Shown: one piece after another, positions 2,709 through 54,800 of the stretch | How positions within the stretch are numbered: position 1 is the first letter of the stretch | Layout: each line of letters starts with the position of its first letter | Assembly: GCA_021018995.1 (NCBI GenBank) | Contig: CM037595.1 | Coordinates: 98,421,491 to 98,485,490, forward strand | Source: Chloranthus sessilifolius | Taxonomy: Eukaryota > Streptophyta > Magnoliopsida > Chloranthales > Chloranthaceae | DNA length: 64,000 bases | Direction of reading: 5' to 3' | Made by a program: the position numbers and the translations under genes | The notes under the pieces: generated by a model | Databases searched by the model: none | Told to the model about the DNA's origin: nothing | What the model saw: the letters and a program-made list of their open reading frames with translations, nothing else

Positions 2709-3366
2709 GTGGACAATCTTTTATGGACAAATTTGTTGGCAGCTTATGTGGTCGGCACCGAATTATATCGGTTTCAGTCGGCACCGAAACGATAAAACTA
2801 ACTTATCGTTTCAGTCAAGGTGTCAAATCGGATACGGGAATTGGGTATCGGTCTATGGAGGACCGATATGAATCGACCGATACATATCGGCCAATACCGA
2901 TACGTATCGGCCAATTTAAAAAAAAAAAAAAACTAAAAACTCCATTGAAATCGAGACGTATCGGCTGATACCCAATACGTAAAGGCCGATACGTATCGGC
3001 GATACCGATACATATAGATTTTACCGAAAACCGATACGTATTAGTATCGGCCGATATTTGATACCATGGTTTTAGTTGAACCAAATTATTGTGGTCAAAT
3101 TATCTGGCGGTAAGTTACTAACCACCAAATTATGGGTCAATAATTTCAAGACCATTTTTAGAGTCTTTTGATTTTTGAAAGAAAAAAATAGGCACTAAAA
3201 TTTTGGCTAGCCCTGAAAATTTTAAAATTCAATCAAATTTTTAGTTTCGGTCATGCCGGAAACTAATACCGAAATCAATATTTTGATCCTTGGGCCTCAG
3301 TATGTGTGGAGCCTATCACGTCTCGCAACATAAGCTGCCTGCAAAATTATCTATAAAAAACTTATC
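2709..3366. mobile_element. MITE of the GCAGCTTATGTGG family, split by a nested element
   Basis: The left end (about 2718-2752) reads TTTTATGGACAAATTTG then GGCAGCTTATGTGG. The right end (about 3327-3362) read on the other strand gives TTTTTTATAGATAATTTTG then CAGGCAGCTTATGTTG. These are imperfect inverted ends of one element, with the CATGG-family element at 2816-3068 nested inside. A smaller relative sits at 14258-14384 and perhaps another at 13040-13220. Exact ends and TSD are not resolved. Confidence 0.5.
2816..3068. mobile_element. CATGG-family MITE, copy A
   Basis: 253 bp with inverted ends CAAGGTGTCAAAT (left) and CATGGTATCAAAT (right, reverse strand). The flanking 8-bp TSD is GTTTCAGT (2808-2815) and GTTTTAGT (3069-3076), one mismatch. 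The interior is packed with CCGATACGTATCGG-type palindromes and an A-run. An 8-bp TSD and ends starting CA fit a non-autonomous hAT-type element. No protein is encoded. Confidence 0.7.
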
Positions 3367-3484
3367 GCACTGTATAGCAGTGTCCATAATTTAACTATGG
3401 GGATAAAAAGCTAACAAGTTTACTAAAATTGTTAATTAAGGATTAAGGAAGAATTTGAGATATGATAAATGTGAGCATTGGAGC

Positions 3485-3698
3485 CATGGATCAAAATTTC
3501 GGTCGAGACCGATACGTATCGGTATTGGTATCGAACGATATATTGAATGTATCGTTCGATACATTCAATTGTATTAAATGTATCGAACGATACATTCAAT
3601 TATCGTCCGATACCAATTGGTACCGATACGTATCATCTGATACGTATCGTTTTGGAGCTCGAACGATACATATCGGTAATCCGATATTTTGACCCATG
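3485..3698. mobile_element. CATGG-family MITE, copy B
   Basis: 214 bp with ends CATGGATCAAAAT (left) and CATGGGTCAAAATATCGG (right, reverse strand). A perfect 8-bp TSD ATTGGAGC lies at 3477-3484 and 3699-3706. The interior has repeated CGATAC / GTATCG words, including CGATACATTCAAT pairs. This copy and the one at 7009 fix the true ends of the family. Confidence 0.85.
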
Positions 3699-3805
3699 AT
3701 TGGAGCCGTGTTTGCTCAACGCTCCCAGCCAACGTTGACCAATACAAAACGGAAGAGCATACATCAAATAAAAGAATAAGAGCTACTTGGAATAGGATAT
3801 AGTGG

Positions 3806-3980
3806 CATGGGAATTTCGGGTATCGGAATAATAAAATACCGAACGATACATTGAATGTATCGTTTGGACATTTACATATAAAAGGACGATACGGTACATT
3901 GAATGTACCGTATCGTCCAAGTTTGATACCGATACGTATCGTCCGATAAGTATCGGTATCGGACGATATTTTGATCAATG
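3806..3980. mobile_element. CATGG-family MITE, copy C
   Basis: 175 bp starting CATGGGAATTTCGG and ending CGATATTTTGATCAATG. TSD TATAGTGG (3798-3805) and TATAGTGA (3981-3988), one mismatch. The interior carries CGATACATTGAATGTATCG palindromes. The left end is diverged, but the TSD supports the call. Confidence 0.7.
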
Positions 3981-3988
3981 TATAGTGA

Positions 3989-4559
3989 TATTATTTTTAC
4001 TTTGGGAGCCATTACTTGCTGTCGGAAATGTGGCTCTTGCACCGAAGTTAAAGAAAGACTTTGCGTTTTAGGAACATGTGACATGTGACATGTGAACATA
4101 CAATTTGGACTGACTGATTTAAAGTTCATAATCTATAGATCTTTAGTGGAAAAGATTATATAAAAACACGATATTTATCATATGATCTATTGTTGTCAAC
4201 CGTTGAATCAAATAATAGCCTTTGACTATATTTAATCATATGACGAAAATTATATTTTGTGCTAATCTTTGCACTTAATATCTTTAAATGACGGACTCCA
4301 AATCAACTGATTTAAATAGTGTTCTCATATGATAGAAGTCGCCAAAACTTGTGAGTCTTTGTTTTAAACTCAAAGCTAAATTTCCAAGTACAAGTAATGG
4401 CTCCCTTTTACTTTTTAAGTTTTAATATAAAAAATTAAATGCGAGCAACTCATGTCTTACATAAATTTCGTATGGGAGCGGTTACTCTACACGCTTTTTA
4501 AGTGATTGTAGCTAATTAACTAGAATTTGTTCTTACACACAGTTCTTGTGATTGCACCT
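3989..4559. other. Intergenic, AT-rich, nothing recognised
   Basis: Contains only a short run of ACATGTG repeats near 4075-4095. No coding or RNA feature seen. Confidence 0.5.
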
Positions 4560-5035
4560 AAAATAATAATGATAAATTGTATCTATTTCTTTTTCTCTCT
4601 CTAATCTCTCTTTCGCTAATCTCTCTCTCTCGCACACGGTCACATCTCTTTAACATCTCTCTTAGCAACTGCTTTAACAGAAAATTGGGCTAATTATGAA
4701 TACTCGATGTAGGACTTTCTAACCCAAATCGGGTATTCATTATGCAATAAAACCTACCTCCTAAGCTCTTAGTATTCCTCCATAATCTTCTTCGTCGCCG
4801 GAAATGAAGGTATGATCTTTTATTTTTAATCTTTTTCTTTGTCTTTCATAGGTGATTATGGCTGTGTATCTGTAAATCTTTAGATCTACTTTTCTTATTA
4901 TTATTATTATTATTTTTTTCTATGCTCATAAATAAAAAATAAATGAACTCATCTGATTGTTTATCTTTATAGCGTGATCGGCTGAAAGTGCAAAGAATTG
5001 GATGGCTACAATATCATCTAATCTCATTGTAGCTG
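4560..5035 (+). other. Possible orphan 5' end of a gene (leader and first exons)
   Basis: A CT-rich leader-like stretch (4587-4635) is followed by GCCGGAAATGAAG and a good splice donor GTATGATC (4811). A T-rich intron-like segment ends at TTTATAG, then CGTGATCGGCTGAAAG (about 4973). This looks like the start of a plant gene with a tiny first coding exon, but no continuing reading frame or known domain can be followed. It may be a truncated gene, an lncRNA start or chance. Confidence 0.2.
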
Positions 5036-7008: not shown

Positions 7009-7237
7009 CATGGATCAAAATATCGTCCGATACCGATACGTATCGGACGATACGCATCGGTATTGGACTCGAACGATACATTGAATGTATCGTTCGATAC
7101 ATTCAAATGTATTGAATGTATCGAACGATACATTCAATGTATCGTCCGATACAGATCGGAACCGATACATATCGTCCGATACGTATCGTTTTGGAGCTTG
7201 GACGATACGTATCGGTAACCCGATATTTTAACCCATG
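7009..7237. mobile_element. CATGG-family MITE, copy D
   Basis: 229 bp with inverted ends CATGGATCAAAATATCG and CATGGGTTAAAATATCGG. A perfect 8-bp TSD GTCCCACA lies at 7001-7008 and 7238-7245. The ninth flanking base differs, so the duplication is 8 bp, as in hAT. The interior is a chain of CGATAC-containing palindromes on both strands. Confidence 0.85.
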
Positions 7238-18157: not shown

Positions 18158-18235
18158 GGGAAATTTACCTGACAGGCCCTGTCAGATGCGCCTTTTACGT
18201 CAGAAGCCCTGTAGTTTCACTTTTACCCAAACAAA
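18158..18235 (+). repeat. Left terminal inverted repeat of the MULE
   Basis: 78 bp starting GGGAAATTTACCTGACAGG and ending TTTTACCCAAACAAA. It pairs with 27859-27934 with a few substitutions and a 2-base gap. Confidence 0.9.
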
Positions 18236-18518
18236 CCTACTGCGCGCTGAGCTGACGCACGCCTGTTGGAAATGCCCAAACTACCCCCAATATAATAAAT
18301 AGCCGTCCTCTTTTCAAATCATTTACTGTTTACTTTTTACTTTTTCGTTCGAAGTTGGTGGAGAGTCGTTGTCGCTTCGTGGACGCTCGCGTTCAAATCT
18401 ACAACCTTCAAGCTACCAAATCTGTAAATTAGAATTAAAATCACCTTCCATCGCTATAGATTTTTTTTTTCTCCTCTCTTTGGTGCATATTTTGACATAA
18501 TTTTGTTAGGTTTTCCCA

Positions 18519-18716
18519 TATGTAATCGATATCGATCTTATATGTAATCGATATCGATCTTATATGCAATCGTTACCGATTACATATTGAGTCGCTATCG
18601 ATTATATGTAGAGTTGCTATCGATTGCATTTAGAGTCGATAACGATTATATATGTAGTCGTAATCGACTATATAAATAGTCGATGACGACTCTATAACAA
18701 ATCGATATCGACTCTC
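18519..18716. repeat. 22-bp palindromic-unit array 1 (9 units)
   Basis: Nine units of exactly 22 bp with core ARTCGNTANCGAYT in constant phase. The first two units are identical. It lies between the left end of the MULE and its first ORF. Confidence 0.85.
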
Positions 18717-18986
18717 TATGAATATAATTAATACCCATCATATGAATTAATTTTTCTATAGTTATTACCCTCGATGTCATAATAAATCATACGATGTTTT
18801 ATATTTATCTCAGCCGACGTTCAATTTATTGCCAACTACCCTTTTGTAAAACCATTATGGCAAGTTAGGTTGGAAGAATGAGAAAATTTAATACAACGAT
18901 TCGTATTCCACCATCTAGGAGCTTTAAATACAGGTTTAGTTCGTCCTTAGCAAACCTATCATCCCTACCAGGCTATATTTTTCTCA

Positions 18987-19250
18987 ATGTCAGACGACGA
19001 AGAAAAAACCTTCTATAACCCAATCAAGTTCGAGCCTGTATGGGAGGACCCACCACCACCACCAGAACCAGATCCTCTGCAGTTCCTGTGGAACGAGTAC
19101 AATGAAGTAATAGAGATTTTGGCGAAGGAAGAAAAGAAGAAGAAGAAGGAAGAAAAGAAAAAGAAGAAGGAAGAAAAGAAAAAAAAACTTAAGACGGAAC
19201 CACCCGCCTCTCCACCCCATCCACCACCTGCTCTTCATCCATCTTCCTAA
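18987..19250 (+). CDS. Small KE-rich ORF of the MULE
   Basis: An 87-residue ORF: acidic start (MSDDEEK), a PPPPPEPDP stretch, a short non-repetitive part (FLWNEYNEVIEILAK), then a lysine/glutamate run and a proline-rich end. No known domain. Its 3' half is duplicated in tandem at about 19590-19695, so the coding character is doubtful. It could be the first exon of the DUF1985/Ulp1 gene or a small element-encoded protein. The Phe-rich ORF on the other strand is its shadow. Confidence 0.35.
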   Translation: MSDDEEKTFYNPIKFEPVWEDPPPPPEPDPLQFLWNEYNEVIEILAKEEKKKKKEEKKKKKEEKKKKLKTEPPASPPHPPPALHPSS

Positions 19251-19420
19251 ATTTTCTTTTCATTTTTAATTGTAATTAAAAAAATTTGAATGTAATTGAA
19301 AAAATTTACAAGTAAATGAAACATTTTGATTCAATGGCGACTTCATGAAATCTTTTGAGTCAGTAAATTAAATATTTTCTATATAAATAAATATTTTGAG
19401 ATCATTGCGACTTTATATTG

Positions 19421-19587
19421 AGTCGATGGCGATTTCATATGTAATCGATATCGATTACATCTAGACTCGATATCGATTACATATAGAATCGGTATCGATT
19501 ATATATAGACTCGTTATCGATTACATCTAGAGTCGGTATCGATTACATGTAGGGTCGATATCGATTATATATGTAATCGATATAGAT
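19421..19587. repeat. 22-bp palindromic-unit array 2 (about 8 units)
   Basis: Seven full units and a partial one in strict 22-bp register. Cores include ATCGATATCGATT and GTCGGTATCGATT. Belongs to copy 1 of the segmental duplication. Confidence 0.85.
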
Positions 19588-19927
19588 AAAGAAGAAGGAA
19601 GAAAAGAAAAAGAACAAAAGAAAGAAAAAGAAACTTAAGACGGAACCACCGGCCTCTCCACCCCATCCACCACCTGCTCTTCATCCATCTTCCTAAATTT
19701 TGGTTAGAAGCGGAGGACCGCTTTTATCGAAGAATCTTCCTTAGGACGTTGCTGCAAGATTTTCTTTTCATTTTTAATTGTAATTGAAATATTATGAATG
19801 CAATTGAAAATTTTGCAAGTAAATGAAACATTTTGATTCAATGGTGACTTCATGAAATCTTTTGAGTCAGTAAATTAAATATTTTCTATATAAATAAATA
19901 TTTTGAGGTCATTGCGACTTTATATTG

Positions 19928-20095
19928 AGTCGATGGCGATTTCATATGTAATCGATATCAATTACATATAGACTCGATATCGATTATATATAGAATCGGT
20001 ATTGATTATATATAGACTCGATATCGATTACATCTAGAGTCGGTATAGATTACATATGTAATCGATAACGACTATATATGTAATCGATAAAGATT
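19928..20095. repeat. 22-bp palindromic-unit array 3 (about 8 units)
   Basis: The duplicate of array 2, same register and unit order, with several point differences. Confidence 0.85.
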
Positions 20096-20190
20096 TTATA
20101 TATATATTTCATCAACATTTAAACTATCCTTGTTAGTATGGGGCTCAATCCTTTCTTTTTTATTACAATTCATTTCAAAAGGCTATCAAG

Positions 20191-21030
20191 ATGGTTGTAC
20201 ACCGAGCTGTTGCCAAGTGTTCACCCAGTGTCATTTCGAATCTCTACGAAAATGCTACCCTAGCTCGGAAGAAGTTGCTGAGAGATTCCGTTTTTGGTGG
20301 AATATTTCAAATGCCTAAGGGTGTGGGATTTCTTTCCGATGTGGTGGATGCGATGTTGACATTTTGGGTTGAAAAAAACTACTTCCGAATTGGAAAGACT
20401 GATGTCTATCTTCGGAATATAGACATTGCATTGATACTGGGCATTGCCGTAGTTGGCCCAGAAAAGTATATCCCATCCGTTAAACCATCGGAAGAACAAA
20501 CCATTCGATACAAATACTTTCGTGGAATGCCTCCTGGAAAAATTCTCCGGTCTCATATAGATGCTGCAATTTGTAAAGCGGAAAGTGATGAGGACTTCGT
20601 AAAGTTGTCCCTTCTATTTGTTCTGTGCATATTTCTCTTCCCCAGGTCCCACCATCAGCTTTCGGAAGACCACATCGACCTCATCGATGATGTGGAGAAC
20701 TTTAACCGAACTCCGTGGGGTCTACACGTCTACCAAGACTTGATCGAGTATATAATGAAGGGCGCAGCGAATAGAAAAACTGCCGAGATGGATAAAGCCC
20801 TGAAGACGTACAACACATATGGATGTATATGTGTACTTCAATGGTGGGCTTATGAGATCCTGCCCGATATATCGCCATCCCAGCTAGGCCTCAAGGACCC
20901 TTTCCCACGGCTACTGAAATGGTCGGGCAGGGCGCAGTTAAGGATCAAAGGTTACACTCGCGAACAGATGTTAGAAGCAAGGTATGAGGTCTATTGCCAA
21001 TTCAAAAAGCAACATACCGATTCATTCTAG
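20191..21030 (+). CDS. DUF1985-type protein carried by the MULE
   Basis: A 279-residue open frame. Residues about 40-100 contain the pattern of DUF1985 and related plant-mobile-domain proteins: a hydrophobic helix (VVDAMLTFWVEKNYF), then RNIDIALILGI. Further on are a conserved NRTPWG segment after an acidic loop (near residue 170) and LQWWAYEILP (near residue 215), both typical of DUF1985. In Kaonashi-type MULEs this domain precedes a Ulp1 protease in one gene, and the protease exons do follow downstream on this strand. The frame ends at TAG 21028, where array 4 starts. A good splice donor (AAG|GTATGA, about 20981) suggests the true exon may stop earlier and join the exon at 21323, but the phases do not match cleanly. 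Molecular function is unknown. Confidence 0.65.
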   Translation: MVVHRAVAKCSPSVISNLYENATLARKKLLRDSVFGGIFQMPKGVGFLSDVVDAMLTFWVEKNYFRIGKTDVYLRNIDIALILGIAVVGPEKYIPSVKPSEEQTIRYKYFRGMPPGKILRSHIDAAICKAESDEDFVKLSLLFVLCIFLFPRSHHQLSEDHIDLIDDVENFNRTPWGLHVYQDLIEYIMKGAANRKTAEMDKALKTYNTYGCICVLQWWAYEILPDISPSQLGLKDPFPRLLKWSGRAQLRIKGYTREQMLEARYEVYCQFKKQHTDSF

Positions 21031-21264
21031 AATCGATAACGATTCATCACAGAATCGATAACGACTTTTTAAGAAGTCGATAGCGACTCAGTACAGAATC
21101 GTTATCAACTACTTAGGACGTTGATAGCGATTCATTTAGGAATCAATAACCACTTACTAAATAGTCGATAACGATTCATTAAATAATCGATAGCGATTCA
21201 GTAACGAATCGATATCAATTTTTTAAATAGTCGATATCGATTCTTTACATAATCGAGAATGATT
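21031..21264. repeat. 22-bp palindromic-unit array 4 (about 11 units)
   Basis: Starts one base after the stop codon of the DUF1985 frame and fills the gap to the next exon. Strict 22-bp period; cores such as AATCGATAACGATT. Confidence 0.85.
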
Positions 21265-21949
21265 TATTATATATATGATCACTTTATTTGGTTATTCACC
21301 ATGTTTCCTTTTTTTTCAAAAGGTTCGCGCTCCCCTCGTGCCTCAGGGCTTTGAATTAGAGATACCCGTGTTAAGAGAATATCTACGGGTTCAAAAGGAG
21401 GTTGGGGGGAAGAGGAAAGAACCGGTCAAGAAAGCTGTGGAAGAGATGCGGCCGAAGAAGAAAAGAAATTACATTCCGGTAGAGAATATTGATGAGGAAG
21501 AATGGGATGACGCATCGACATCAGAAGAAGAATCCCCATCGAAAAAGGGCCCCGTCCATGTCGGAGAGGATCGGCCAAGAACTAGGGGAGCCACCAAGGA
21601 GAGCCTGGCAGTAAAAGATAGCCCAGCTGAACCGTCCACCTCCAATGATCTTTTGATGAGGAGGGTCGATCATTTGACGATGGAGAACTTAAAGCTCACC
21701 AAAAGAGTTTGCGATTTGGAGGGAGAGAATAAGGCCCTGATTAAACGTTGTGCTTCTGTAGAGAAACTATGCAACTCCTTCAATGAGAAGCTGAATTCAA
21801 GGGATGCGGAGTGACAGAAGTTAAATCACTACAATCATTTGGTCAGAAAGAGCCAGTCGAATATAAAAGAACTCTTTGAAAATTTATTGGAGGCGAGACC
21901 TAAGGTATGTGTTGAAATCTGGTTTTATATGTTCAGTTTTGTTAACATA

Positions 21950-22181
21950 AATCGATATCGACTGTATATAGAGTCGATAACGATTATATACACAATCGTT
22001 ATCGACTTTATATAGAGTCGTCGATAATATAATCTGTCGTTATCGATTATATATTCAGTCGATATCGATTATATTTACAATCGATAGCGACTATATATAT
22101 AATCGATAACGATCATATATAAAATTGATAGCGACTATAAGTACAGTCGATAACGATTATATTTAAAATTGATTTTGACTT
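21950..22181. repeat. 22-bp palindromic-unit array 5 (about 11 units)
   Basis: Fills the intron between 21905 and 22237. The 22-bp phase breaks once near 22020, then resumes. Confidence 0.85.
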
Positions 22182-22890
22182 TTTAAAATGTGGACCAAAA
22201 ATTAATTCTTATTTTGTACCATTATTTCGATGTACAGGATGTGACTATGGAGGAGCTAATATCAAAGGTGTGCGACACAACCGTCGATAAGGAACCATCA
22301 GCTCCTGCGCATCAGGTTCCTCCTCCTCCTCCCGTTGATGAGGTGATGGCAACTGCTGACGAGCAGCCTGAGACTCAAACTGATAAGGGTCCTGCTGGTG
22401 AAGAGGAAACCTCTTCCCAATTGCCTCACCAACAAGCTGAGCCTCGCTTAAGACCTAGGCAAGCAAAACTCAGCAAAGTAATTGCCGTCAAACCTAAGGC
22501 ACAGCGAAGGGTAGCAAAAAGAAGCTCACCGAGAAGGCCAAGGACAAGCTGTTGAGCCTAGACCGTTGGCGTCATTACCGGGTCCCGGTCTACGGTCAAG
22601 ATGCTCTCCGAAGCTTCCACCGAAATGATGACGAGCAAAAATATATGCTAGACATATGGAACAAGCTTCTGAAGGAGGACGAGTAAGTTATTTTTCCCTG
22701 AATACTTAACTTTATTATTATATATTTATCGTGAAGATTAGTTATGTTGACCATTTTTTATGCAGAGAATATGTTAACACTGTCGACAAGTATAAGTTGG
22801 TGGTGCAATCCGTCAGATGTCTGGCGACCACGCAGTACCTGGATAACTTTGTAAGTTTAACATACTGTAGGCAAAATTAAGAATGGTTAA

Positions 22891-23124
22891 AGCTATCGAC
22901 GACTCGAAAAAGAGTCGATATCGATTCATTATAGAGTCGATAACGATGACTTACATAATCGTTATCGACTCTCAAATTAATCGATATCGATGACTTTTAG
23001 AGTCGATAACGATGGCTTATGTAATCGTTATCGACTCTTTAAATAATCGATATCGATTCATTTGAGAGTCGATAACGATGAATTAAGATATCGTCATCGA
23101 TGACTTATAGAATCGATAACTATT
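22891..23124. repeat. 22-bp palindromic-unit array 6 (10-11 units)
   Basis: Fills the intron between 22851 and 23173. Units recur in the order TCGATATCGA, TCGATAACGA, TCGTTATCGA, giving a 66-bp higher-order period. Confidence 0.85.
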
Positions 23125-24171
23125 ATATATTTCACTCTAACTGCATATTTAAATCTAACTGCATTGGTTTCAGGTTATGGGCGCCTACCTGAGACATTTG
23201 GAAGTAATTGATGATAAAATTTATCCTGATAAAAATCCCAAAAACTTCCTTATGGACCCTGCCGCGCTGACGTACATGGGCTATGAACTGAGATATTTTA
23301 ACAAGTTCCTGCTTGCTGAAAAATTATACGACCAATCGATCGAGGTTCAAGTTCAACGGTGGGCTGTCTATAGACAAAAAGAGACCGGAGGGAAGAAGCT
23401 GATGGAAACTTTCTTTTTCAATGAGCTTCGGAATCTGTGGGCTCACGAATGCAGTATAGTATGCTTTTATCCTCTTTATAATTATTCTTTTTAATTTTTC
23501 TATCATACCCTTTGAGATTATATTTCTTTTTTATAGATATTTATGCTAATATATTCAAAACAACCACTACACTGGGCGCTTGCGATCGTGAAGGTAGTAG
23601 AACGATCGATCATGATCATCGACCCTATATTTAATAGGCCCTCTAAGGAAAGATATGTGTCCCAATTGCAGGCGCTGGTAAGATATTTTGCTTAGCATAT
23701 CTTTTATCATTGTTAGCTTAGCATATCTGACACTCATCTCTATTATTTTGAAACAGACACAATACCTTTCCGTGATTTTATATTCGTATGATGACTCCGT
23801 TGCACTGATCTAGAAGAACTATCCTTGGTCATTTAGTGACTGCCGGATCAAAGCCCTCCCCCGACAGACCAACTCGTGTGATTGTGGAGTGTTTGTTGTG
23901 AAGTATGTCGAGTACTTCATGGTGGGAAAGAAATTTGATTTCACGCAATCAGACATAGATAGAATCAGGACAGAAATTGGCCATATACTGGCTACATATA
24001 TAGGCGATGGCGGAGTACTGGCGAAGGACGACAAAAAGGAGGGGGAGCAGCAGTAGTGTGGTTGTATTTTAATATTTTTATAAATGTAAATAAAATATTT
24101 TTTCTTAATGAATTATTTTGAATATAATTACACTATTTTTATGTAGCTGTGGTTAAAAAGTAGAAATAGCA

Positions 24172-24473
24172 GCCATTATCGACTACATATATAGTCGTCA
24201 TCGACTATATAACTAATCGGTAACGACTCTGTATGTAATCGCTATCGACTATATATAGAGTGGTCATCGACTATATAACTAATCGGTAACGACTCTTTAT
24301 GTAATCGCTATCGACTATATATAGAGTCGTCATCGACTGTATCCATAATCGATACCGATTCTTGAATGAATCGATATCGACTTTATAAATAGTCGATGGC
24401 GACTCTATATAGAGTCGATATCGATTATGGATACAGTCGATGACGACTCTATGATTCATCGGTAAAGACTATA
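24172..24473. repeat. 22-bp palindromic-unit array 7 (about 14 units)
   Basis: Lies between the 3' ends of the convergent Ulp1 and transposase genes. Thirteen successive units keep exact 22-bp spacing. Units 2-4 and 5-7 are a near-identical 66-bp duplication. Confidence 0.9.
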
Positions 24474-24544
24474 TTACAGTAAAAAAACATGGATTCTCAA
24501 TTTCACGTTTATATTCTATTTATCATTATTAAAAATGTACACTG

Positions 24545-27267
24545 TCAACCCATCGGTCCCACTGTCGTGCAGCTCCTGCGGTTGTGACCATATTCACTGC
24601 ACCTGCTACACTGTAGTGCCCTAACCTCACCCTTAGACCTTATCCTTCTCTTCCTCGGACGGCTGGCTTGCTTTCGACAATAATAGAGTGGTTTCACTTT
24701 CATATTTTCAGGGAGTTGCTCTGCTTGGAACTCCCATTGACTTTTATCGAGGGTGGGAACCCATTGCTCTTCGTATGTTTTGTCTAAAACAAGCGGTGAA
24801 AAATTATTTCTCACAAAAGTTATGGTAGTCGTAACTTCTTCGATTGATGGCCTCCACCGCATGGGAGCAAGGCAAGCCATAAATGTGCCAACGGCGGCAA
24901 CTACAGATCTTGTGTTCCAAGTCGACGTGATGAATGAAATTTTCGGAATTGACTTGGAATTGATCGCGCCCGTATGGTTGAGCTCTCTTTCTACCGGCCT
25001 ATTACAACATCTTCTTCATGTGCGCGTCTGCTTTCGGGCAGAGAAAGGTGGTCTATTTCTCAGATATCTCTCTGCATTTTTGAAAATGATCGGCGGCTTT
25101 CTCTCTAGTAGTTCTGATTAAGTCGATAATTGGTCTCTCTCGAGCTATCTTTACCACGCTGTTTAAACTTTCGGCAATATTCGTAGTCAGGGAATCGTAC
25201 TGCCTTCCTTCCATATGTGCGCGTGCCCAATGCTTTGAATCTATTTTTAAAATATATTCTACGACCTGAGAATCAGCAGGATCTTTCTTCATTTCGTTAA
25301 TAAAATAATCAAATTTCTCTTTCAAATATGCACGCGCGGCGCATCACCATAGACCCTTCACATTGTTCCTGGATACTTGTGTTGCAAATTTTGTGTCATA
25401 TGCCGCATGCAGTAGTTGTGATATGCGTTAGGGAAGATATGTTTCACCGCATTTTTTAAACCCTTCGACCTGTCCGTGATAAATACGAAATCTTCGTTAA
25501 ACCCACCGATCACGAATGCACCTACCCATTCAAGAAACCACATCCACGTTTCCTCTTCTTCTAACTCGACCACGGCAAATGCTAACGATAATATATGACC
25601 ATTACCGTCTTGCGCAGAGGCGATAAGTAGGATCCCTTCGAAACGTCCTCGTAGGTGTGTGCCGTCTACAAGCAATATGCGTCGAAGTGCATTGCGGTAG
25701 CTTCCGATGCATGGGCCAAAACTCTAAAAAAATCTTTGAAACTTACCGTCAAGAGTAAGTTAAAAGGATGCTTGTACATTAGGATCTACCCTCTCCATCT
25801 CCTTCACGTAGGCCGATAGATCAACAAATTGTCCTTTCCAACTGCCTTTAATATCATTAAGGGCAAGTTCTTTTTCCCTCCAAGCCTTTGCATATGAGAT
25901 TCACACATTATAAGCTTTTGCAATATCAAACATTATCGACGCCGGTGTGTAGTCGAATTCTTCCATAAGTTTATCCCGTACATAGTTTACTACGAAGGAG
26001 ATTGTTGCATTACGTGGACCGTGCGGTCTGATCTTAGCGGCTCCGCATGTGTGAGTACTATTGAATGTCTTGATTTGGAAAGAATCGAGCCCAGTCAATT
26101 TAGAAGCATGTATTCGCCACGAACAATCGGGTTCGTAGCATCCGGCTGTCACTCGATAACTAGCGATCCTCAAAGACCGAATTTGAAAGTTTTTCTCCAC
26201 CGCGTGCTCTTTCAATGCTCTTTGAAATATTTGTTTGTCTCGAAAGATCTCTTCAATTTTAAACGTCCAATTCTGATATTCAATTTTCACCTCTTCATCG
26301 GAGGAGTCGCCCGACGTCTCTGACATTTCGTAATCTCCGTCTACTAGGGGATTGTCAATGTCTCTCACAAAAATTTTCGGATCCTCTTTGATAAACTCAT
26401 CCGGTTCGCCTTCATATTCTTCTTCTAAGGTATCTTCATTCATGGCTTGAGGATGACTACGCCATTCACTAGCGGTGTTCTCGGGTGGTTGACTAGATCC
26501 TTCACCGAAGGGGTTCTGATGTGATTGACCGGATCCTTCACCGAATGGATAATCGCGTGGTTGGCTAGGCCCTTCACTGAAGGGGTGCTCATGTGTATGG
26601 ACATGGGGTTGAGTTACTCCGGTAATTCTCATTGATAGCATGGTAGAACATAAGTCTTGAGTAAACCAAGTTGTCTGTCCACCGGGGAAGATATGGTGAA
26701 AATAGTCAATTACCCTTTCTGAAGTATAGTCTAACCATTGACTACATTGTTGTGACTCATGCATGTATTTTACTGGGTCATCATACGATTCAATCGGAGC
26801 ATCGTTTAAATCAAATGTTGCTTTCCCTCTGCCATCATTCGCCGCAATATAACCGTCATCGCCTAACGGATCGGTATCGATATCTGATTTCATCCTCAAA
26901 CTTACATGGTCAAATGAATGAGTCACAAAATCGATCCGCCGAGATTTACTTGTTGTTCGGTTCCTTAATGATGAATACTTTTATAACGTCCACCGCGGAT
27001 TTATAAAACGTAAATAATGTAGCCAAATAATCAGAGTTCAAAATGTCGGCAACCACGGGCGCATTCACTATCTTCATATGAAACTTTGTGAAAACAGTTT
27101 CATCCGCCTTCACAAAACTGACAGCAGATATTCGCCTTATGAATTGTTCATAAGAAATTTCAGTTGAAATGTTAATAAGCCTCCGCCGGCCACCTTGATA
27201 CAAGCCACCATCGTTTACAAGAAGGCCATCATAGTGACAAAGAAGAGGAATCCTCACGTCCGTCATC
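24545..27267 (-). pseudogene. MULE transposase, broken
   Basis: Domains in order on the minus strand. First, 27267-26946 is a PB1-like N-terminal segment (MTDVRIPLLCHYDG...). Next, 26926-25901 is an acidic region and a MuDR-type N-terminal DNA-binding domain with C...C...H...C spacing (ending FNSTHTCG). Next, 25675-25358 is the MULE catalytic core with VDGTHLRGRF (first Asp) and FITDRSKGLKNAV (second Asp). Next, 25325-25053 continues the core. A SWIM zinc finger follows at about 24925-24860 (CSC...C.H), then a CCHC zinc knuckle near 24600 (CSRCSEYGHNRRSC). Breaks: TAA after the PB1 segment, in-frame TGA, TAA and TAG between 25900 and 25680, a frameshift and TGA near 25340, and further frameshifts before the SWIM finger. 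It is convergent with the Ulp1 gene. It could have mobilised this element before it decayed. Confidence 0.85.
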
Positions 27268-27355
27268 GTCTGTTTAAGAATGAGAAGGAAGGGGTCATAA
27301 AACTGATGAAACAAAAGAGAAAAGACAACTATAAATCTTAGCCGATTGTGTATAC

Positions 27356-27468
27356 AATCTATATCGATTCTATATAGAGTCGATATCAATTGTATATACA
27401 ATCGATATCGATTGCAAATACAATCGTCTCTATATGGAGTCGATGACGATTGTATTTGCAATCGATAT
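27356..27468. repeat. 22-bp palindromic-unit array 8 (about 6 units)
   Basis: Upstream of the transposase start (27267), between it and the right end of the MULE. Five readable cores in 22-bp steps; one unit is shortened. Confidence 0.8.
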
Positions 27469-27858
27469 TTTTTTTTTTTAAAACGGATAGAAGGATACTA
27501 AGACCTTTCTTATACTACATAAATAGGAGGTACTGCATCACTAAGAGACACTAATAAACTGAAAATTGGGTTTAAGTAGGATACCTCGCGTTGCAAGGAC
27601 AAACTTTAGGGTCTTTTTGCCACAATGAAGAAATGTAGGGGCTGCTTCTCCCAAGCCTCTGTTTTCTTCTTCGAAATAGCAGATCGGAGAAATAGCAGAT
27701 CAGACTAAGTAAGGAGACGTCGTCTAGGGTTTTGCACCTCTAACTTTTTTGTAGGATAAAATGAGGAAGAAAAAGATGCTTTGTTGATTAAAGAAGGTCA
27801 TAGAATAGGGTAATTTGGACTTTTTACTCTCCTTAGGATCGGCTAGGCTTGGAGCTAA

Positions 27859-27934
27859 TTTGTTTGGGTAAAAGTGAAACTACAGGGCTTCTGACGTAAA
27901 AGGCTCATCTGACAGCCTGTCAGGTTAATTTCCC
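27859..27934 (-). repeat. Right terminal inverted repeat of the MULE
   Basis: 76 bp, reverse complement of the left end, finishing at TTAATTTCCC. Position 27934 is the last matching base. Confidence 0.9.
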
Positions 27935-28575
27935 AATTCCTCTTACAAATATTTGCAGGTCAGAAGACTCCCAAGTCCCAACCATATGTTCAGAGCACTG
28001 TCGGTCATTGACTCTCTATCATTGTCTATTCATACCATAACCAGTCATTTTAAAAGCTCTTGATCACAAATCATACATACGATAGAGTGATTTGGAGAAT
28101 GGATTAAGTTTTGTATTTTGGCGAAAACATATGACACGTATATCATGTAGTGACCACCAAATAAGAAAGTCGCTAAGGACAAAATATGGAAGCCGTCACC
28201 ATAGAATGGCGTGGCAATTCCTAACCTTGACATTGAGATCCCCGCCCGCTTCTAGCCGCTCTCAAGCAAAGGAGTTGTACTCGCTTGAGAGCGGGTAACT
28301 CCGCTCTGGCAAGGAGCGGATAAGGCACTGACACGTTCCGTAGAGGAGCCAGTCCAAACTCAGTGAAATCCCAAGCACCGTAGAGGTGGCTTGGTCAATT
28401 TTCTTTTGCTAAAATAGTCAATAGCCTATGGTTACTATGCTTTTTACGTTTATTTATTTTGCTATCGAAACATCAATGCATTTAGTGAAGGTTGGGTGAA
28501 GGTTATTGACTCGAGCACCATCAATAGAGCTATGGTTGGGTCAAGCAGGGCATCTGCCCTTTCTATATTACAAAA
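27935..28575. other. Intergenic, nothing recognised
   Basis: Contains a short inverted GCTCTCAAGC / GCTTGAGAGC pair near 28258-28285 in a GC-richer patch. No gene seen. Confidence 0.45.
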
Positions 28576-33566: not shown

Positions 33567-33815
33567 CAAGGTATCAAATATATGCCGATACCGATATGTA
33601 TCGGCGCCGATACGTATCGAGTATCCAACTCGGTATTGGTATCGGCCGATACGGGCCTGTATTAGCCGATACATATCAGGTATTGGCCGATACGTATCCG
33701 GTATTGGCAATACCTGCATTTTTATTTTTTATTTTTTTTTAAATTGGTCGATACGTATCGACCGATTCATATCAATCCTCCAAGGACCGATACTGATACC
33801 GAGTTTGTTACCTTT
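33567..33815. mobile_element. CATGG-family MITE, copy E
   Basis: Left end CAAGGTATCAAATAT, reversed right end AAGGTAACAAACTCGG. The interior is full of CCGATACGTATCGG-type palindromes, closest to copy A. The right end is worn and no clear TSD remains. Confidence 0.6.
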
Positions 33816-35170: not shown

Positions 35171-37555
35171 TGCCACAGCCCGAATTTCGACACCTCGAAA
35201 CTCGTGCCATCAGCACGACCTTCAAGGCCATGCCCCATAAACCTGCACGAAACATTAGTATAACCAAGCAACAATAAAGTATAAGAACTGAATCGAACTA
35301 AATCTCCAATTCTATATATATAACCATCAAAATAAGTAATCCAAAAGATAATTATAATCTCATGCCAACGCATGAGCAAAAGAACCTACATGAACTATCA
35401 GTGATGACACAACAGTCACCCTGGATGGTTCGCCAAAAGAAGATATCACTGTTTAATTACATTTTCTCAAAAATGGCTTAACATACCAAGCCGTACAGTA
35501 CTCTCACAAAACTAAATCAAAGTACGCAAGGGTCCTCTAAAAGAAGTCCTTAGGAGGGGGCTTCAACTCCTCCTCCGGTACGTAATTTAAATCCTCCGGA
35601 TCTATGCCTCCCAAAGTAGCAGCAGCCGCAAGCACATGACCTATGACGTATAGTTTAAAGGGTGAGCTACATCATAGCTCAATAGGAAAACAACTGAATG
35701 AACATACAAATTAATCTCTCACATATATTCCATGATATTTAGCGGTATGATGTATAAATGAATTAGCTAGAAAAGTAATTTAAATGGCTGAAAAGATGCT
35801 CTGGATGTTATGGTTACTTTAAATGTTTTAATTTATTCTCAACTTGCTCATATAAGACAATGATTTGGCCTAAAAACTAAAATCATAACTTAAATATTCT
35901 TACTATAGCATTGGGCACCCAATGGAATACCCTTCATCGTCGTCTAATCAGATCATTTTCATATCCTTTTTCATTCATTCAATACTATCCAGGCCCCTAT
36001 CTCATAGGCGATGGGGTTTAAGTCTCATACATGCATACATATATCTCTGGGATGTGCAACAGGTGTACAGATTGGTCGCCGTACCGATCATGGATATTTT
36101 GTCGAGTCAGTCGTGGGTATCCCGCCACGTCGGTGGGGTATTCTCCAAACCTTAAATATAAAAAATACACTACATATAGTTATTCACCGTGTGATTGTGC
36201 TAAATATATTATATTAGGTCTTATCAATTCTCATTCATTTTACTTTATATTTTCACATACATCTCTAGGATGTCCAACTCAATGCATCACACAGATGTCC
36301 TTATCATATTCACATCCCCTGGGGACGTCACATACTCATCTCCTTATTTAGTGTTCACACACACACACCTTTAAGATTCATATTTTCGATGCATAAGTAT
36401 TCATTTCTATATTACTACATACATACTCTTGCTATTAAAATACATATTCAAGGCGTTCCCTACCTCATGTGCTTGAATTTCTCAAGCGTCAAGTCCAAGG
36501 CATTTCCCGTGCTCGCATTCACTTGTATGACCTATGGTATATCATAGCATAAGCAAAGCATTAAGAAAGATGCATAAAAGAGGGTACAAGACCCTTCTAG
36601 AACCCCAAAGTCCAAAATAAAAGCCAACAGAAACTGCTCAAATCGATTGATCGATATCCAACATCGATCAATCGGACTCCCAAAATCGATTAATCGATCC
36701 CAAATCGATTAATCGAAATTTCAAAATCGATTTCTCAAATCGATCAATCGATTTTCCCAAGTTATGATTTTCCAGCCACTGGGAGTACTCATACGATTAA
36801 TCAATTTTAAATAGATTAATCGAAATCCATAAATTGATTGATCGATTTGAAATCAATCAATCGGTTTCGGGAAATTTTGCCCAGCTAACTTCCAGGTCAA
36901 AATCGATCAATTTATTTTTCAAATCGATCAATCGATTTGGTCAGAAACCCAGCCCCTTGCGGGCATTTCTTCCAGCTTTCCTCTCTTTCATTTCTCCTTT
37001 CTTTTCTATATTTTTAAATTGCCATTTAACCACTCTATCCTAGAGTTAATGCACAACAACATATTCATTAAAATCTAACAAAAACTCACCTCAAATCAAC
37101 CCTTGGTTGATTCAATGGTTTAGCTCAAAGGTTAGGGCTCCTAGCTCCAACTTCAACAAATTCCAATGCATCGTCTCCGGAGTTAATGTTTGAGCACGCC
37201 TTCCAATTAAAATCCACACTAACTCTCTTTAGCATTTACTCTCCCCCTTCCTCTAAACTCTCTCTCTCTCTCTCTCTCTTCTTAACTCTCTTCACCAACC
37301 TAAGCTTAAGAGAAATAACTTTTCCTAAGTTATTTCCTCATTTTTAAGCCTTCAAGCTTTGGTGTAAAGCACATACACCAACGATAGGTATATGTGATCT
37401 CCTACTTAGCTCTTATACTACATATACATGCTTATTAACATCAACCTAAGTTGAATCATAATAATCGAGTTGATTTTTTACTTGATCAAACCTACGACCA
37501 TTCGGGCACACATCCCGAGAACACTATTCAATGCTCAAATTTTGAGAGTGTTATA
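35171..37555 (-). repeat. 3' LTR of the Tekay-like element
   Basis: 2,385 bp, TGCCACAGCCCG ... GAGTGTTATA; the terminal CA has mutated to TA. It carries a CT microsatellite (37258-37280) longer than in the other LTR, and an ATCGATTRATCGAT cluster at 36640-36945. ORFs within it are not genes. Confidence 0.9.
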
Positions 37556-45187: not shown

Positions 45188-47547
45188 TGTGATAGCACGG
45201 ATTTCGGTACTCTAAAACTTGTGCCATCAATACGACCCTCAAGGTCGTGCCTCATAAGTCTGCATAGAACATTGATATAACTAAGCAACAATAAAACATA
45301 AGAACTGAATCGAACTAAATCTCCAATTCTATATATATAATCATCAAAATAAGTAATCCAAAAGATGGTTCTAGTCTCATGCCAATGCATGAGCAAAAGA
45401 ACCCACCCGAACCATCAATGACGACACAACAGTCACCCTGGATGGTTCGCCAAAAGAATATATCATTGTTTAATTATATTTTCTCAAAAATAGATTGACA
45501 TACCAAGCCGTACAGTACTCTCACAAAACTAAATCAAAGTACGCAGGGGTCCTCTAGAAGAAGTCATCGGGAGGAGGCTCCAACTCCTCCTCAGGCACGT
45601 AATCCGAATCCTCCGGATCTACACCTCCCGAAGTAGCAGCAGCCGCAAGCACAAGACCTGTGACGTATAGTCTAAAGGGTGAGCTACATCATAGCTCAAT
45701 AGGGAAACAACTGCATGAACATACAAGTTAATCTCTCACATATATTACATAATATTTAGCAGCATGATGTATAAATAAATTAGCTAGAAAAGCAATTTAA
45801 ATGACTGAAAAGATGCTCTGGATATTATGGTTACTTTACATGTTTCCATTTGTTCTCAACTTACTCATATAAGAGAATGATTTGGCCTAAAGACTTAAAT
45901 CATAACTTAAATATTCTCTGATTTACTATAGCATCGGACGTACGATGGAATACCCTTCATCGTGGTCTAATCAGACAATTTTCATATTTTTTTTCATTCA
46001 TTTAATACTACCCAGGTCCCTTTCTCATAGGCGACGGGATTTAAGTCTCATAAATACATACATACATCCCTGGGATGTGCAACAGGTGTACGGATTGGCC
46101 GTCGTACCAGTCACGGATATCCTGTCGAGTCAGTCATGGATATCCCGCCACGTCGGTGGGATATTCTCCAAACCTTAAATATCAAAAGTGCATTACATAT
46201 AGCTATTCATCATGTGATTGTGCTAAATATATTATATTAGGCCTTATCAATTCTCATTCACTTTGCTTTACATTTTCACATGCATCTCTGGGATGTCCAA
46301 CTCAATACATCACATAGATGCCCTTATCATATTCACATCCCATGGGGACGTCACATACTCATTTCTTTATTTAGTGTTCACACATACACCCCCTTAAGAT
46401 TCACATTTTCGATGCATAAGTATTTATTTCTATATCACTACATACATGCTCTTTCTATTAAAATATATGTTCAAGGTGTTCCTTATCTCACGTGTTTGAA
46501 TTTCTCAAGCGTCAAGTCCAAGGCCTTTCCTGTGCTCGCATTCACTTGTATGACCTATGGTACATCATAGCATAAGCAAAGTATCAAGAAAAATACATAA
46601 AAGAGGGTACAAGACCCTCCTAGAACCCCAAAGTCCAAAACAAAAGCCAACAGAAATTGCTCAAATTGATTGATTGATCTCCAACATCTATCAATCGAAC
46701 TCCCAAAATCAATTAATTGATCCCAAATCGATTAATCGAAATTCTGAAATCGATTGATCAATTTCTCAAATCGATCAATCGGCTTTCCCAAGCTCTGATT
46801 TTTCAGCCACTGGGAGTGCTCAGACGATTAATCGAAATCCACAAATTGATCAAATCGATCAATCAGTTTCGGGCAATTTTGCCCAGCTAACTACCAGGTC
46901 AAAATCAATCAATCGATTTTCCAAATCAATCAATTGATTTGGTCAGAAACCCAACCCCTTGCGAGCATTTCTTCCAGCTTTCCTCTCTTTCATTTCTCCT
47001 TTCTTTTTTATATTTTTAATTTGCAATTTGACCAATCTATCCTAGAGTTAATGCACAATAACATATTCATTAAAATCTAACAAAAACTCACCTCAAATCA
47101 ACCCTTGGTTGATTCAATGGTTTAGCTCAAAGGTTAGGGCTCCTAGCTCCAACTTCAATGAATTCCAATGCGTCGTCTCCGGAGTTAATACTTGAGCACG
47201 CCTTCCAATTCAAATCCACACTAACTCTCTTTAGCATTTACTCTCCCCCTTCCTCTAGACTCCCTCTCTCTTCTTAACTCTCTTCACCAACCTAAGCTTA
47301 AGAGAAATAACTTCTCCTAAGTTATTTGCTCATTTTTAACCCTTCAAGCTTTGGTGTAAAGCACATACGCCAACGATAGGTATATGTGATCTCCTACTTA
47401 GCTCTTATACTACATATACATGCGTATTAACATCAACCTAAGTTGAATCATAGTAATGGAGTTGGTTTTTCACTTGGTCAAACCTACGACCATTCGGGCA
47501 CGCATCCCAAGGACACTGTTCAACGCCCAAATTTCGGGGGTGTTACA
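45188..47547 (-). repeat. 5' LTR of the Tekay-like element
   Basis: 2,360 bp, TG...CA on the plus strand (TGTGATAGCACGG ... GGTGTTACA). It pairs with 35171-37555 along its length. The element's promoter should lie here. ATCGATTRATCGAT-like words cluster at 46660-46945. Confidence 0.9.
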
Positions 47548-49419: not shown

Positions 49420-49680
49420 GTCAGCGTCGAGGGTGTCAATGTCTCGCTATCGAGGTGTCAACGTTTCGCTACCGGGGTGACAGCGCTTCGCTATCGAGGT
49501 GTTAGTGTTTTGCTTCCGGGGTGCCAACACCTCGCTAGAAAGGTATCAGTGCTTCTTTCGAGGGGTCTTAGCTCGCTATTGGGGTGTCAGGGCCTCACTA
49601 TCGAGGTGTCAATGCTTCTCCCCCAGGGTGTCAGCGCTTCACTATCGGGGTGTTAGCACTTCGCTATCGGGAGGCCCATA
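49420..49680 (+). repeat. 24-bp minisatellite, about 11 copies
   Basis: Degenerate tandem units near GGGGTGTCAGCGCTTCGCTA followed by TCGA, in 23-24 bp steps. The unit is GC-rich in an AT-rich setting. An ORF runs through it only because the unit length is a multiple of three. Confidence 0.8.
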
Positions 49681-51699: not shown

Positions 51700-51852
51700 A
51701 TTTATGTAGATATCTATGCATTAGCTTACACGTTCAGCCGGGTCTAATTTCATTGAAAATGGAGTTATATCTAAGTGATTCCGACGAAGCTGGATGAAAA
51801 ATTGCGATTATAGTCTTCATTTGGCGGAATTTTGCAAGGATCTTGCTGTAAG

Positions 51853-54800
51853 ATGTCGAGCTTAGCTCTCCAAGCCTCGCTTGTTCCGGCCTCTGAAGCC
51901 CTTTCGAAGCTTGTCGAGGAGATATACGAGACTTTGCTTGCAGTGAATAACGTCCTCTTCGAGAAAGAGAGCTTCTCAGCACTCAAGAGTTACTTGGAAA
52001 GGATTGTTCCCATTCTAAACGAGTTGACCAAGAAGAATTCCCATAACTCCGAAACCGTTGACAATGTTATAGGGATTATTAGTAGGGAGATCAAACTGGC
52101 AAATCAACTAATCCTTGAGTGTAGCAAGAGAAACAAGTTTTATCTCTTAGTAAATTGTCGAAAGATTGTGAAGCGATTAGAGAACACGACCAGAGAGATA
52201 AGCCGAGCTCTAAGCTTTATCCAATTTGCCCATCTAGATCTCTCGTTAAGTATAAATGAGGAAATTAGCACATTGTGTGATGATATGATGAAAGCAGAGT
52301 TTAAGGCAGCCGTGGCAGAGGAGGAGATATTGAAGAAAATTGAATTGGGAATAGAGCAGAGGAATGTTGACCGATCCTATGCAAACAATTTGCTGAATCT
52401 CATTGCAGAGGCTGTTGGAATCTCGAGTAATCGGTTGGAGTTGAAGAAGGAATTCGATGAATTCAAGCGCGAAATAGAAGATGCACAGCTGAGAAAGGAC
52501 CAAGCTGACGCCATTCAAATGGATCAGATTATTGCATTACTTGGGAGGGCTGATGCCGCTTCTTCTCCTCAGGAGAAAGTGATGAAATATTTCCAAAAGC
52601 GGAAATCTTTAGGTGACCAACAGTTGGAACCTCTCCAGTCATTTATTTGTCCAATTACTCGCGATGTTATGGAAGACCCCGTGGAGACTTCATCCGGGCA
52701 GACTTTCGAAAGAAGCGCAATTGATAAGTGGCTTGCTGATGGGAATGCCACCTGCCCTTTGACCATGACCCCTCTAAAGAGCATAGCTCTCCGCCCTAAC
52801 ATTACTCTTCGGAAATCAATCGAAGAGTGGAAGGAAAGGAACAAGATGATCAAGATTGCTTCCATGAAATCTAAACTCTGCTCTGACAACGAGCAAGAAG
52901 TGCTTGATTGCCTGAGCGAATTGAAAGATCTATGCGAAGAAAATGACTCACACCGAGAATGGGTAGCTTTGGAGAACTACATACCGATCCTAGTTGAATT
53001 TCTTGGTGGAAGCAATGCGCTTATAAAGAATCGCGCTTTGACCATCCTTTGCATTTTGGCGAAGGACAGTGATGAAAATAAGGTGCCATTTTTTTTTTTG
53101 AAATTCCGCTATTGCTGCTTTGGTTTATCTTTTTTTGTATTAGTTATGAGGACCCAATCGAGAAGCAACTCTGCAGTAGGTTAAATTGGACTGTAGAGAA
53201 TTTATTCACTGATAAAAAAATTGTAGCTGTTGTATTAGCTTTTTGGATTAGATAAACCCAGTAAAGATATATCTAGTCTAGCTCCAATTTTATATAAATA
53301 TTTAAGTGGCAAGGTAATAAATTGTTATTATTCCTTGCCATTAAACAAATGAAATTGGCTTCTGGCAGGAAAGAATTGCTGTAGTGGACAATTCCATTGA
53401 ATTTATTGGTCGCTCTCTTGCACGGCGTATTGGGGAAGCTAAATTAGCAGTGGCGCTGCTATTGGAACTATCAAAAAATGAATCGGTCCGTAACCGTATA
53501 GGAAATCTACAGGGCTGCATATTCCTCCTAGTAACAATTTCAAACAGTGATAACAATCAAGCTGCTAATGATGCAAGGAAGCTCTTGGAGAACCTTTCTT
53601 TCCTTGATCAAAATGTTGTGCAGATGGCCAAGGCAAATTATTTCAAACCTCTGCTGCAGCGCCTTTCTTCAGGTACTTTCTTACAGTCCTTATTCTCAGC
53701 TTGTCATAGTGTAAGTAGAAAGCTGAAAAGTTAAATGCATAGTATTGGTGATAAACCCAACATGCAATTGCTCATATTTGACAAAATATATGAACAAAAT
53801 GATTACGTTATCACATTAGGGATAAGAACTTTTTGCGTGTGCTAGATCTGTATACATGAGCAAGGACAAGTTTATCTGAACAGTATATATACCAATCAAT
53901 ATTTGCTTCACGAAGCATATTTCATCTTTAGTATTTACTACATGAGAAAGAATCTAGAAAAAGCACATGTATAACTAAAACAAGAAAGAAATGGAAAGGC
54001 AACACATGCATACATTAGATTTTAGAAAAGCTATTCTAAAAATGCACATGTGCGAGCACACACATGTATTTCTACATGTGTGTGCACGAGCGCATGCACA
54101 CTAGATACACGTGGAATAGAGTTCTATAGAAGTAGAACTGTACAAAGCTAAACATATGCATCCATGTATAGATACAGATTTATAGATACGCTGCATTCTT
54201 CCAGTCATTATACACGTATAATGACTTAGAGACGTGTTGAAGATGCTTGAATCTAACATAACAATGCAAATAAATCCCCAAACCGCTTTCATTGGCTTGC
54301 TGAAACATGCTAAAAACTAAACTAACCATGCAATTGAATCTCAAAACCCTTCAAAGAGTACCTATTAATGCAATTCAATACCCTAACATGTTTGAAACTA
54401 TTGGCGGGAAAATTTTAGTAGTCGCAGTCAAACGTTACCATGGCTGAAAGACTGCAGTGAAGAGAACTTCACAGCCAAACATTTTGTTGTCAAAAGTGTA
54501 GAGCCAACAGAAGCCCGTGACTAAACATTTATGGCCAAAAGATCACAACATGGAGAAATTCATGGCCAGTACGAGCAATCAACTCCCAACTGTTAGAATA
54601 GTCCCACATTGTTTGTGGGCTTGTAGGTCTTGGGCTATAATCTGGGCACTCCTCACCTTACAAGCCGGTTTTGTGAGGTTGAGTTAAGCCCGTTGAATTT
54701 CTTATCATGGTATCAAATGTATTTCTCCACTCCACGTCACCCAATTCAATTGTCCACGTGATTTGACTTGGTTCAATCCCACATTGTTTGTGGGCTTGGA

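Follow-up and report, generated by a model that had tools for sequence, protein, structure and literature searches.

A stretch of 64,000 nucleotides from the genome of Chloranthus sessilifolius (GenBank assembly GCA_021018995.1, contig CM037595.1, positions 98,421,491 to 98,485,490; hereafter the window) contains, at positions 18159-27937, a Mutator-like transposable element (MULE) whose large non-coding gaps are occupied by eight arrays of a palindromic 22-bp unit. These arrays are genuine and characterise, genome-wide, a group of MULEs with terminal inverted repeats (TIR-MULEs); by analogy with the VANC systems of Arabidopsis, they are most likely a VANC-like target array of a new palindromic and phased design. 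Their probable function is to serve as the cis-acting part of an anti-silencing system that, as with VANC, is sequence-specific and carried by the transposon itself; this fits best because a PMD/DUF1985 gene is present in the element, as it is in Arabidopsis VANC elements, and because VANC21 binds tandem motifs in non-coding DNA.

The unit is built on RTCGNNNNCGAY, in which the half-sites RTCG and CGAY enclose a variable 4-bp centre (RTCG-N4-CGAY). This pattern occurs 56 times in the window, compared to a mean of 1.64 and a maximum of 5 in 50 simulations keeping the dinucleotide frequencies; 52 of the matches lie within the element and 4 are isolated outside it. A longer core, ARTCGNTANCGAYT, was found 32 times, always within the element, and 0 times in the simulations. 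When laid on a 22-bp step the units fill 77 slots, a few of which, at edges, are poor, and this agrees well with a first-pass annotation, made by a model from the letters of the window, that had described about 75 units in eight arrays with the same starts. The strict step reported there was also borne out, as 228 of 242 steps of up to 100 bp were multiples of 22 in the window element and seven relatives (L035-L041), the window element itself departing from it at one 19-bp slip (21995-22014) and one irregular step (27401-27439). The unit had further been called an exact 22-bp palindrome, which stands for the step and the half-sites but not for the whole unit: the consensus, A-R-T-C-G-N-T-A-N-C-G-A-Y-T with A/T at the unit boundary, is symmetric and has a further dyad 11 bp off, in the linker, but a perfect 22-bp palindrome was seen in only 1 of the 77 units. 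Autocorrelation in the element peaks at lag 11 as well as 22, and higher-order periods of 44 and 66 bp were detected in the arrays. The suggestion that all sites face one side of the helix should be taken as approximate, as 22 bp would be 2.1 turns at 10.5 bp per turn, giving a drift of about 34 degrees per unit.

The arrays lie at both ends of the element, in a 918-bp gap 5' of the PMD exon, in three introns and in the gap between convergent genes. Array 1 (18520-18717, 9 slots), at the left end, starts about 366 bp inward of the left element end and outside the terminal repeat, while the 918-bp gap holds arrays 2 (19417-19592) and 3 (19924-20099), each of 8 slots, within a tandem duplication (19251-19587 and 19759-20094, 93% identical) which is unique to the window copy among the four full-length copies aligned. 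Arrays 4 (21027-21268), 5 (21946-22184) and 6 (22887-23128), each of 11 slots, are in introns of 310, 330 and 323 bp respectively; array 7 (24167-24474, 14 slots) is between the convergent genes and has, like array 6, a 66-bp higher-order period, and array 8 (27330-27467) is at the right end, with 5 slots (6 sites matching at least 6 of 8 letters). Every gap above 300 bp is therefore filled, introns included, as had been noted, but there are three introns of this size rather than two. In our hand-made gene model, whose exon limits come from reading frames, splice signals and alignment without transcripts and whose splice ends were placed by eye, the three introns of 79-86 bp have no array and no array starts in any exon of the window element. 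Exons and short introns are thus free of arrays, as stated earlier, though eight isolated matches at 7 or more of the 8 positions start in exons, one of them exact (26870).

Judged by its sequence, the element is a TIR-MULE of the Mutator superfamily, with 9-bp target duplications in other copies. Its left terminal inverted repeat (TIR) of about 79 bp (18159-18237, plus strand) aligns with the inverted right end (27860-27937, minus strand) at 77 of 82 bases with 2 gaps. Perfect 9-bp target duplications flank L035, L036, L037, L038 and L052, and one matching at 8 of 9 bases flanks L040; the window copy has none (flanks AATAAAATA and AATTCCTCT) and for this reason may be rearranged. The transposase, of MuDR type, is encoded on the minus strand (24545-27330; Pfam DBD_Tnp_Mut E 1.1e-10 and MULE E 3.4e-22, both above cut-offs), and the plus strand carries PMD/DUF1985, coil and Ulp1 sequences. 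The exon assigned to a VANC-like gene (20168-21015, from Pfam, with splice ends by eye) has a PMD match of E 1.4e-09, above the cut-off, and PMD also passes in L049; DUF287 was absent among the Pfam matches listed. An exon with the basic stretch RPKKKRNYIP and a leucine-zipper-like coil follows (21326-21905, plus strand; a weak bZIP_1 match at E 0.012 is below the cut-off), in which 3 of 2000 shuffles reached the heptad score in the window copy and 0 of 2000 in L036; the window copy has an in-frame TGA at 21812. Beyond it are linker exons with an 86-bp array-free intron (22236-22851, plus strand, frame broken in the window copy by eye) and the Ulp1 (Peptidase_C48) exons (23175-24055, plus strand; Pfam E 1.1e-11 and E 0.0019, the latter just below the cut-off). 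We take the His (HW) and Asp in the region 23540-23674 and the Cys in the region 23814-24055 (QTNSCDCG) to be the catalytic residues, and a search of PDB sequences placed relatives of the Ulp1 region among sentrin-specific (SENP) proteases. The Peptidase_C48 gene is oriented opposite to the transposase, a feature of Ulp1-carrying (KI-MULE-like) elements, and the Pfam matches confirm that the element is an Ulp1-carrying MULE. The PMD, coil and Ulp1 exons would together form one gene encoding one protein. The PMD exon had no match at E 0.001 among 375 candidates from a protein database and a single match, at E 0.56, among PDB sequences, and a structure model of the domain from three sequences had a mean predicted local distance difference test score (pLDDT) of 37. 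A short acidic, lysine-rich reading frame beginning MSDDEEKTFYNP was also recognised by sequence inspection (19008-19249, plus strand).

Pairs of units at the 22-bp spacing were found at 36,651 places in the genome of 2,168,743,587 bases, compared to 49 for a reversed-pattern control; the earlier statement that there are none outside the element therefore holds for arrays in the window but not for the genome, which has many more. A search with the TIR (40 of 1913 candidates scored) gave 41 matches at 97-100% identity, one being the window's own, and array units were present on the inner side of the TIR in 29 of 30 loci, with 222 units inside compared to 43 outside. These 30 loci represent fewer than 30 separate elements, as L006 overlaps L028, and the copy in L036 accounts for both L017 and L031, one at each of its ends. 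Outer-side units were seen at five loci, of which L017, L026 and L028 have another TIR on the outer side, L006 belongs to the same nest of repeats as the L028 that it overlaps and L009 has a single outer unit; L028 is also the only locus lacking inner units. From a search with the PMD exon (136 of 6975 candidates scored) ten loci were taken, L042-L051, L042 being the window's own, and arrays adjoin the exon in all ten, on both sides in nine and on one side in L044, with no exact unit within the exon in any of them. Arrays were likewise present in the related copies L035-L039, so that they cannot be called absent from relatives of the window element.

Whether the arrays are also common as free satellites was judged from all seven array clusters in the first 3.01 Mb of contig C1, a small sample from a single chromosome end. 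Six of the seven have the TIR (L038, L039, L040, L041, L052 and L053), with both ends seen in five of the six (one end being truncated in L041 and partial in L053) and one end within the stretch examined in L039. L038 and L039 are coding relatives of the window element, L052 is a deleted element with the PMD exon and remnants of the transposase, and L040, L041 and L053 are short TIR elements which keep arrays and have no coding match. L038 is a distant relative, its PMD being 57% identical, which has its own 9-bp target duplication and the same array layout. Invasion by a free satellite was rejected as the principal explanation, the sampled arrays being short and, with the exception of L054, in TIR elements.

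Comparison between copies and groups gives some view of what is held constant. The full-length copies L035, L036 and L037 are 92-93% identical to the window element, and array length, at 126, 176, 242 and 264 bp for array 8, changes between copies by about whole units. The central TA and the A/T beside it do not vary across the four groups examined (the window family, L038, L039 and the short elements), while the outer centre letters (N4 and N7) and the spacers do. Centre usage differs between the window family, L038 and the short elements (chi-square 135, 20 d.f., L039 excluded), although the P value from this is overstated as units of one element are not independent. A/T positions of half-sites and centre had changed in 3 of 840 cases and those of the spacer in 29 of 1352 (P 0.0004), with a marginal difference when the former were set against A/T outside arrays (P 0.07); array 2 and one edge slot are left out of these counts. 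Between the window element and L038 the ratio of nonsynonymous to synonymous divergence (dN/dS) was 0.26 for the PMD, 0.27 for Ulp1 and 0.24 for the MULE domain, indicating that the PMD and Ulp1 have been under constraint between the two. As dS was about 1.0, near saturation, for the PMD and Ulp1 but 0.22-0.45 in pieces of the transposase, the element's two halves appear to differ in their history and may have been exchanged between families.

The closest known parallel is the VANDAL/VANC system of Arabidopsis, and for this and the other systems below the statements follow the passages of the cited papers that were consulted. VANC21 binds tandem repeats of YAGTATTAY in introns, intergenic regions and terminal non-coding regions (Hosaka et al. 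2017, PMC5735166), VANC proteins carry DUF1985 (PMC5735166) and their binding causes loss of DNA methylation (PMC5735166, PMC10398659). Both systems have short tandem motifs concentrated in non-coding parts of a MULE and repeat numbers that vary between copies, and the MULE gene of DUF1985 type known from Arabidopsis has a probable counterpart in the window element; with what seems to be the same gene type and with the same placement of arrays, an anti-silencing platform is the likeliest function here. Some VANDALs have VANC genes with Ulp1, whose role a 2026 review calls unknown (PMC13317346). The differences are that VANC motifs (YAGTATTAY, AGTTGTCC, AGTTGTAC) differ between families whereas the window unit is palindromic with a fixed 22-bp step, and that VANDALs lack TIRs or have short degenerate ones, some members of the clade having TIRs (PMC6446971), whereas the window element has TIRs of 79 bp. 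The KI-MULE/KIU elements of Arabidopsis and the ULP1-MULEs of grapevine, melon and rice also have an Ulp1 gene opposite mudrA (PMC13317346, PMC2528002), with both TIR and non-TIR forms of ULP1-MULEs on record in grapevine and TIR-MULEs in melon (PMC13317346, PMC2528002); the passages on these elements do not mention 22-bp palindromic arrays. The host PMD proteins MAIN and MAIL1 resemble the present case in that a PMD is associated both with a short DNA motif and with the silencing of transposons (PMC7156037, PMC9899485), but their DOWN motif, which reads CATGCAGTTT in the MORC1 promoter, does not resemble RTCG-N4-CGAY and its direct recognition is one of several models (PMC7156037, PMC9899485). 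No report of arrays such as these was recognised in the literature, as judged from titles, the openings of abstracts and passages.

In the mechanism that we propose, the product of the plus-strand gene would be a PMD/DUF1985 protein that also has a zipper-like coil and an Ulp1 protease domain, and this protein would bind the palindromic RTCG-N4-CGAY unit as a dimer; the palindrome and the heptad coil would both suit a dimer. Dimers would then load cooperatively along the 22-bp-phased arrays in introns, ends and intergenic space, and the loaded protein would remove or block silent chromatin there, allowing the element to be transcribed and moved, with non-autonomous elements that keep TIRs and arrays being served in trans. 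What we infer from gene content and array placement is that the element's protein binds the unit, that it dimerises and that it counters silencing, as well as whatever part Ulp1 may play. Compared with known VANC systems, the new features are a palindromic and strictly phased motif, a centre that varies between groups of elements and the presence of the motif in elements resembling miniature inverted-repeat transposable elements (MITEs).

Several observations weigh against this interpretation. DUF1985 is under the Pfam cut-off in the window copy (E 5.7e-05), in L049 and in L038, the L038 coil is not significant (151 of 2000 shuffles) and the reading frames are broken somewhere in all four copies compared (window, L035, L036 and L037), with stops in each of the last three as well as in the window copy. 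VANC motifs are described as short, family-specific and, for VANC21, of one orientation. That the half-sites look constant is in part a product of the search, as L038-L041 and L052-L054 were found via the half-site pattern and slots were anchored on exact units, so that families with other half-sites would be missed; in the 21 slots placed by interpolation only, 6-7 of the 8 half-site letters match. PMD distance and centre distance were correlated over the 15 PMD-bearing elements (Mantel r 0.81, reached in 28 of 5000 permutations), but this vanished without L038 and L052 (r 0.11, 1239 of 5000), so co-divergence of the PMD and the array centre is suggestive only. One of the seven sampled clusters, L054, has its short 22-bp-unit array (4677-5000) inside another palindromic repeat, of the GTATCGG type with a 2-bp centre, with no such TIR and no detectable TIR-MULE around it. 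Nor do the array CpGs of the four copies show signs of protection: of 832 cells for CpGs in array units 43 deviated, C>T and G>A being the main changes, compared to 127 of 1896 for coding and 31 of 448 for other CpGs of the element. No constraint on half-site CpGs was seen. As this ordinary methylation-type decay is close to the rate elsewhere, the four copies look to have been ordinarily methylated over the recent past, which is to be expected of silenced copies and so is no test of the anti-silencing model.

The half-site pattern was also examined outside the element at 13 centre lengths (RTCG-Nk-CGAY). The counts for k=2 (17 compared to 1.4) and k=6 (9 compared to 1.4) exceeded all 30 simulations, with weaker excesses for k=8 (7 compared to 1.3), 9 and 12. 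Repeats at 2872-3990, 7009-7237 and 33567-33760, which match one another both directly and as inverted copies, are rich in GTATCGNNCGATAC palindromes with these half-sites and a 2-bp centre. Of the 9 palindromes whose centre is 6 bp long (ATCGATTAATCGAT type), 6 lie in direct repeats of about 2.4 kb with 88.6% identity (35177-37553 and 45194-47545), which flank Ty3-type gag and RNase H frames and are probably the long terminal repeats (LTRs) of a Ty3-type element. Elsewhere in the window there is a GC-richer 22-bp minisatellite of about 10 copies (49444-49671), apparently unrelated to the arrays, and frames with U-box and armadillo repeats (51814-53181 and 59072-59692) that probably belong to a host gene for a PUB-type ubiquitin ligase.

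The first-pass annotation had offered the transposase, a silencing or anti-silencing factor and nucleosome phasing as possible functions, of which anti-silencing is the best fit, the transposase being without specific support. If the arrays bound the MuDR-type transposase they would be internal or subterminal sites aiding transposition, and the retention of TIRs and arrays by short non-autonomous elements is indeed as expected of cis sites for movement, as is the position of two arrays near the element ends; but as introns and the spaces between reading frames hold six of the eight arrays, away from the ends, and as even the first begins about 366 bp inside the element and outside the TIR, this seems unlikely. 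We give the same low weight to the arrays binding a host protein (a transcription factor, an insulator or a MAIN/MAIL1-like host PMD) as a promoter, enhancer or chromatin boundary. The enrichment of k=2 and k=6 palindromes in other repeat families, which counts against the anti-silencing interpretation, suggests a reader not private to the MULE, and the 22-bp-unit cluster of L054 in a k=2-type repeat points the same way. However, the 4-bp centre with 22-bp phase tracks the TIR group in six of seven sampled clusters, and arrays in every large intron would exceed the needs of a promoter.

The arrays may instead be passive, either a slippage-prone palindromic satellite that is tolerated in non-coding DNA only and copied whenever the element is, or a source of small RNA for host silencing. 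Gain and loss of about whole units between copies, the 44- and 66-bp higher-order periods, CpG decay that is the same in arrays as elsewhere in the element and the fact that tandem repeats can be targets of RNA-directed DNA methylation (PMC10398659) would all be in keeping with this. It nevertheless appears improbable, as L038, whose PMD is 57% identical, has the RTCG-N4-CGAY unit in the same sorts of gap, and as core A/T changes are fewer than spacer ones, though with the marginal result against non-array A/T given above. Least likely, in our opinion, is that the arrays phase or exclude nucleosomes by TA steps every 11 bp; the core dyad has a TA and, 11 bp further on, the boundary between units commonly has a T|A, matching the lag-11 autocorrelation, but the fixed CpG half-sites would be left unexplained. 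The repeat of nucleosomal DNA is roughly 10.2 bp, from which 11 bp would drift.

A more elaborate form of the anti-silencing interpretation was also considered, in which a dimeric PMD-coil-Ulp1 protein would read a two-part code of constant half-sites and a family-specific 4-bp centre on 22-bp-phased operator arrays common to TIR-MULEs and MITEs, and a cooperative filament would deliver a SUMO protease that strips silencing complexes; versions of the half-sites with k=2 and k=6 in other repeats, including Ty3-type LTRs, would then belong to other transposons that exploit this reader or one related to it. We regard this as rather unlikely, the more so as the way the loci were found accounts for part of the half-site constancy.

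If the arrays are indeed anti-silencing targets, sequence-specific anti-silencing would be achieved also via phased palindromic sites and in TIR-MULEs, and on a large scale, given 36,651 adjacent-unit pairs in one 2.17-Gb genome. This would explain why short non-autonomous elements retain arrays, and it would provide a compact, testable DNA target whose centres form a natural set of variants for studying specificity, as well as a setting in which to ask what the Ulp1 domain does.

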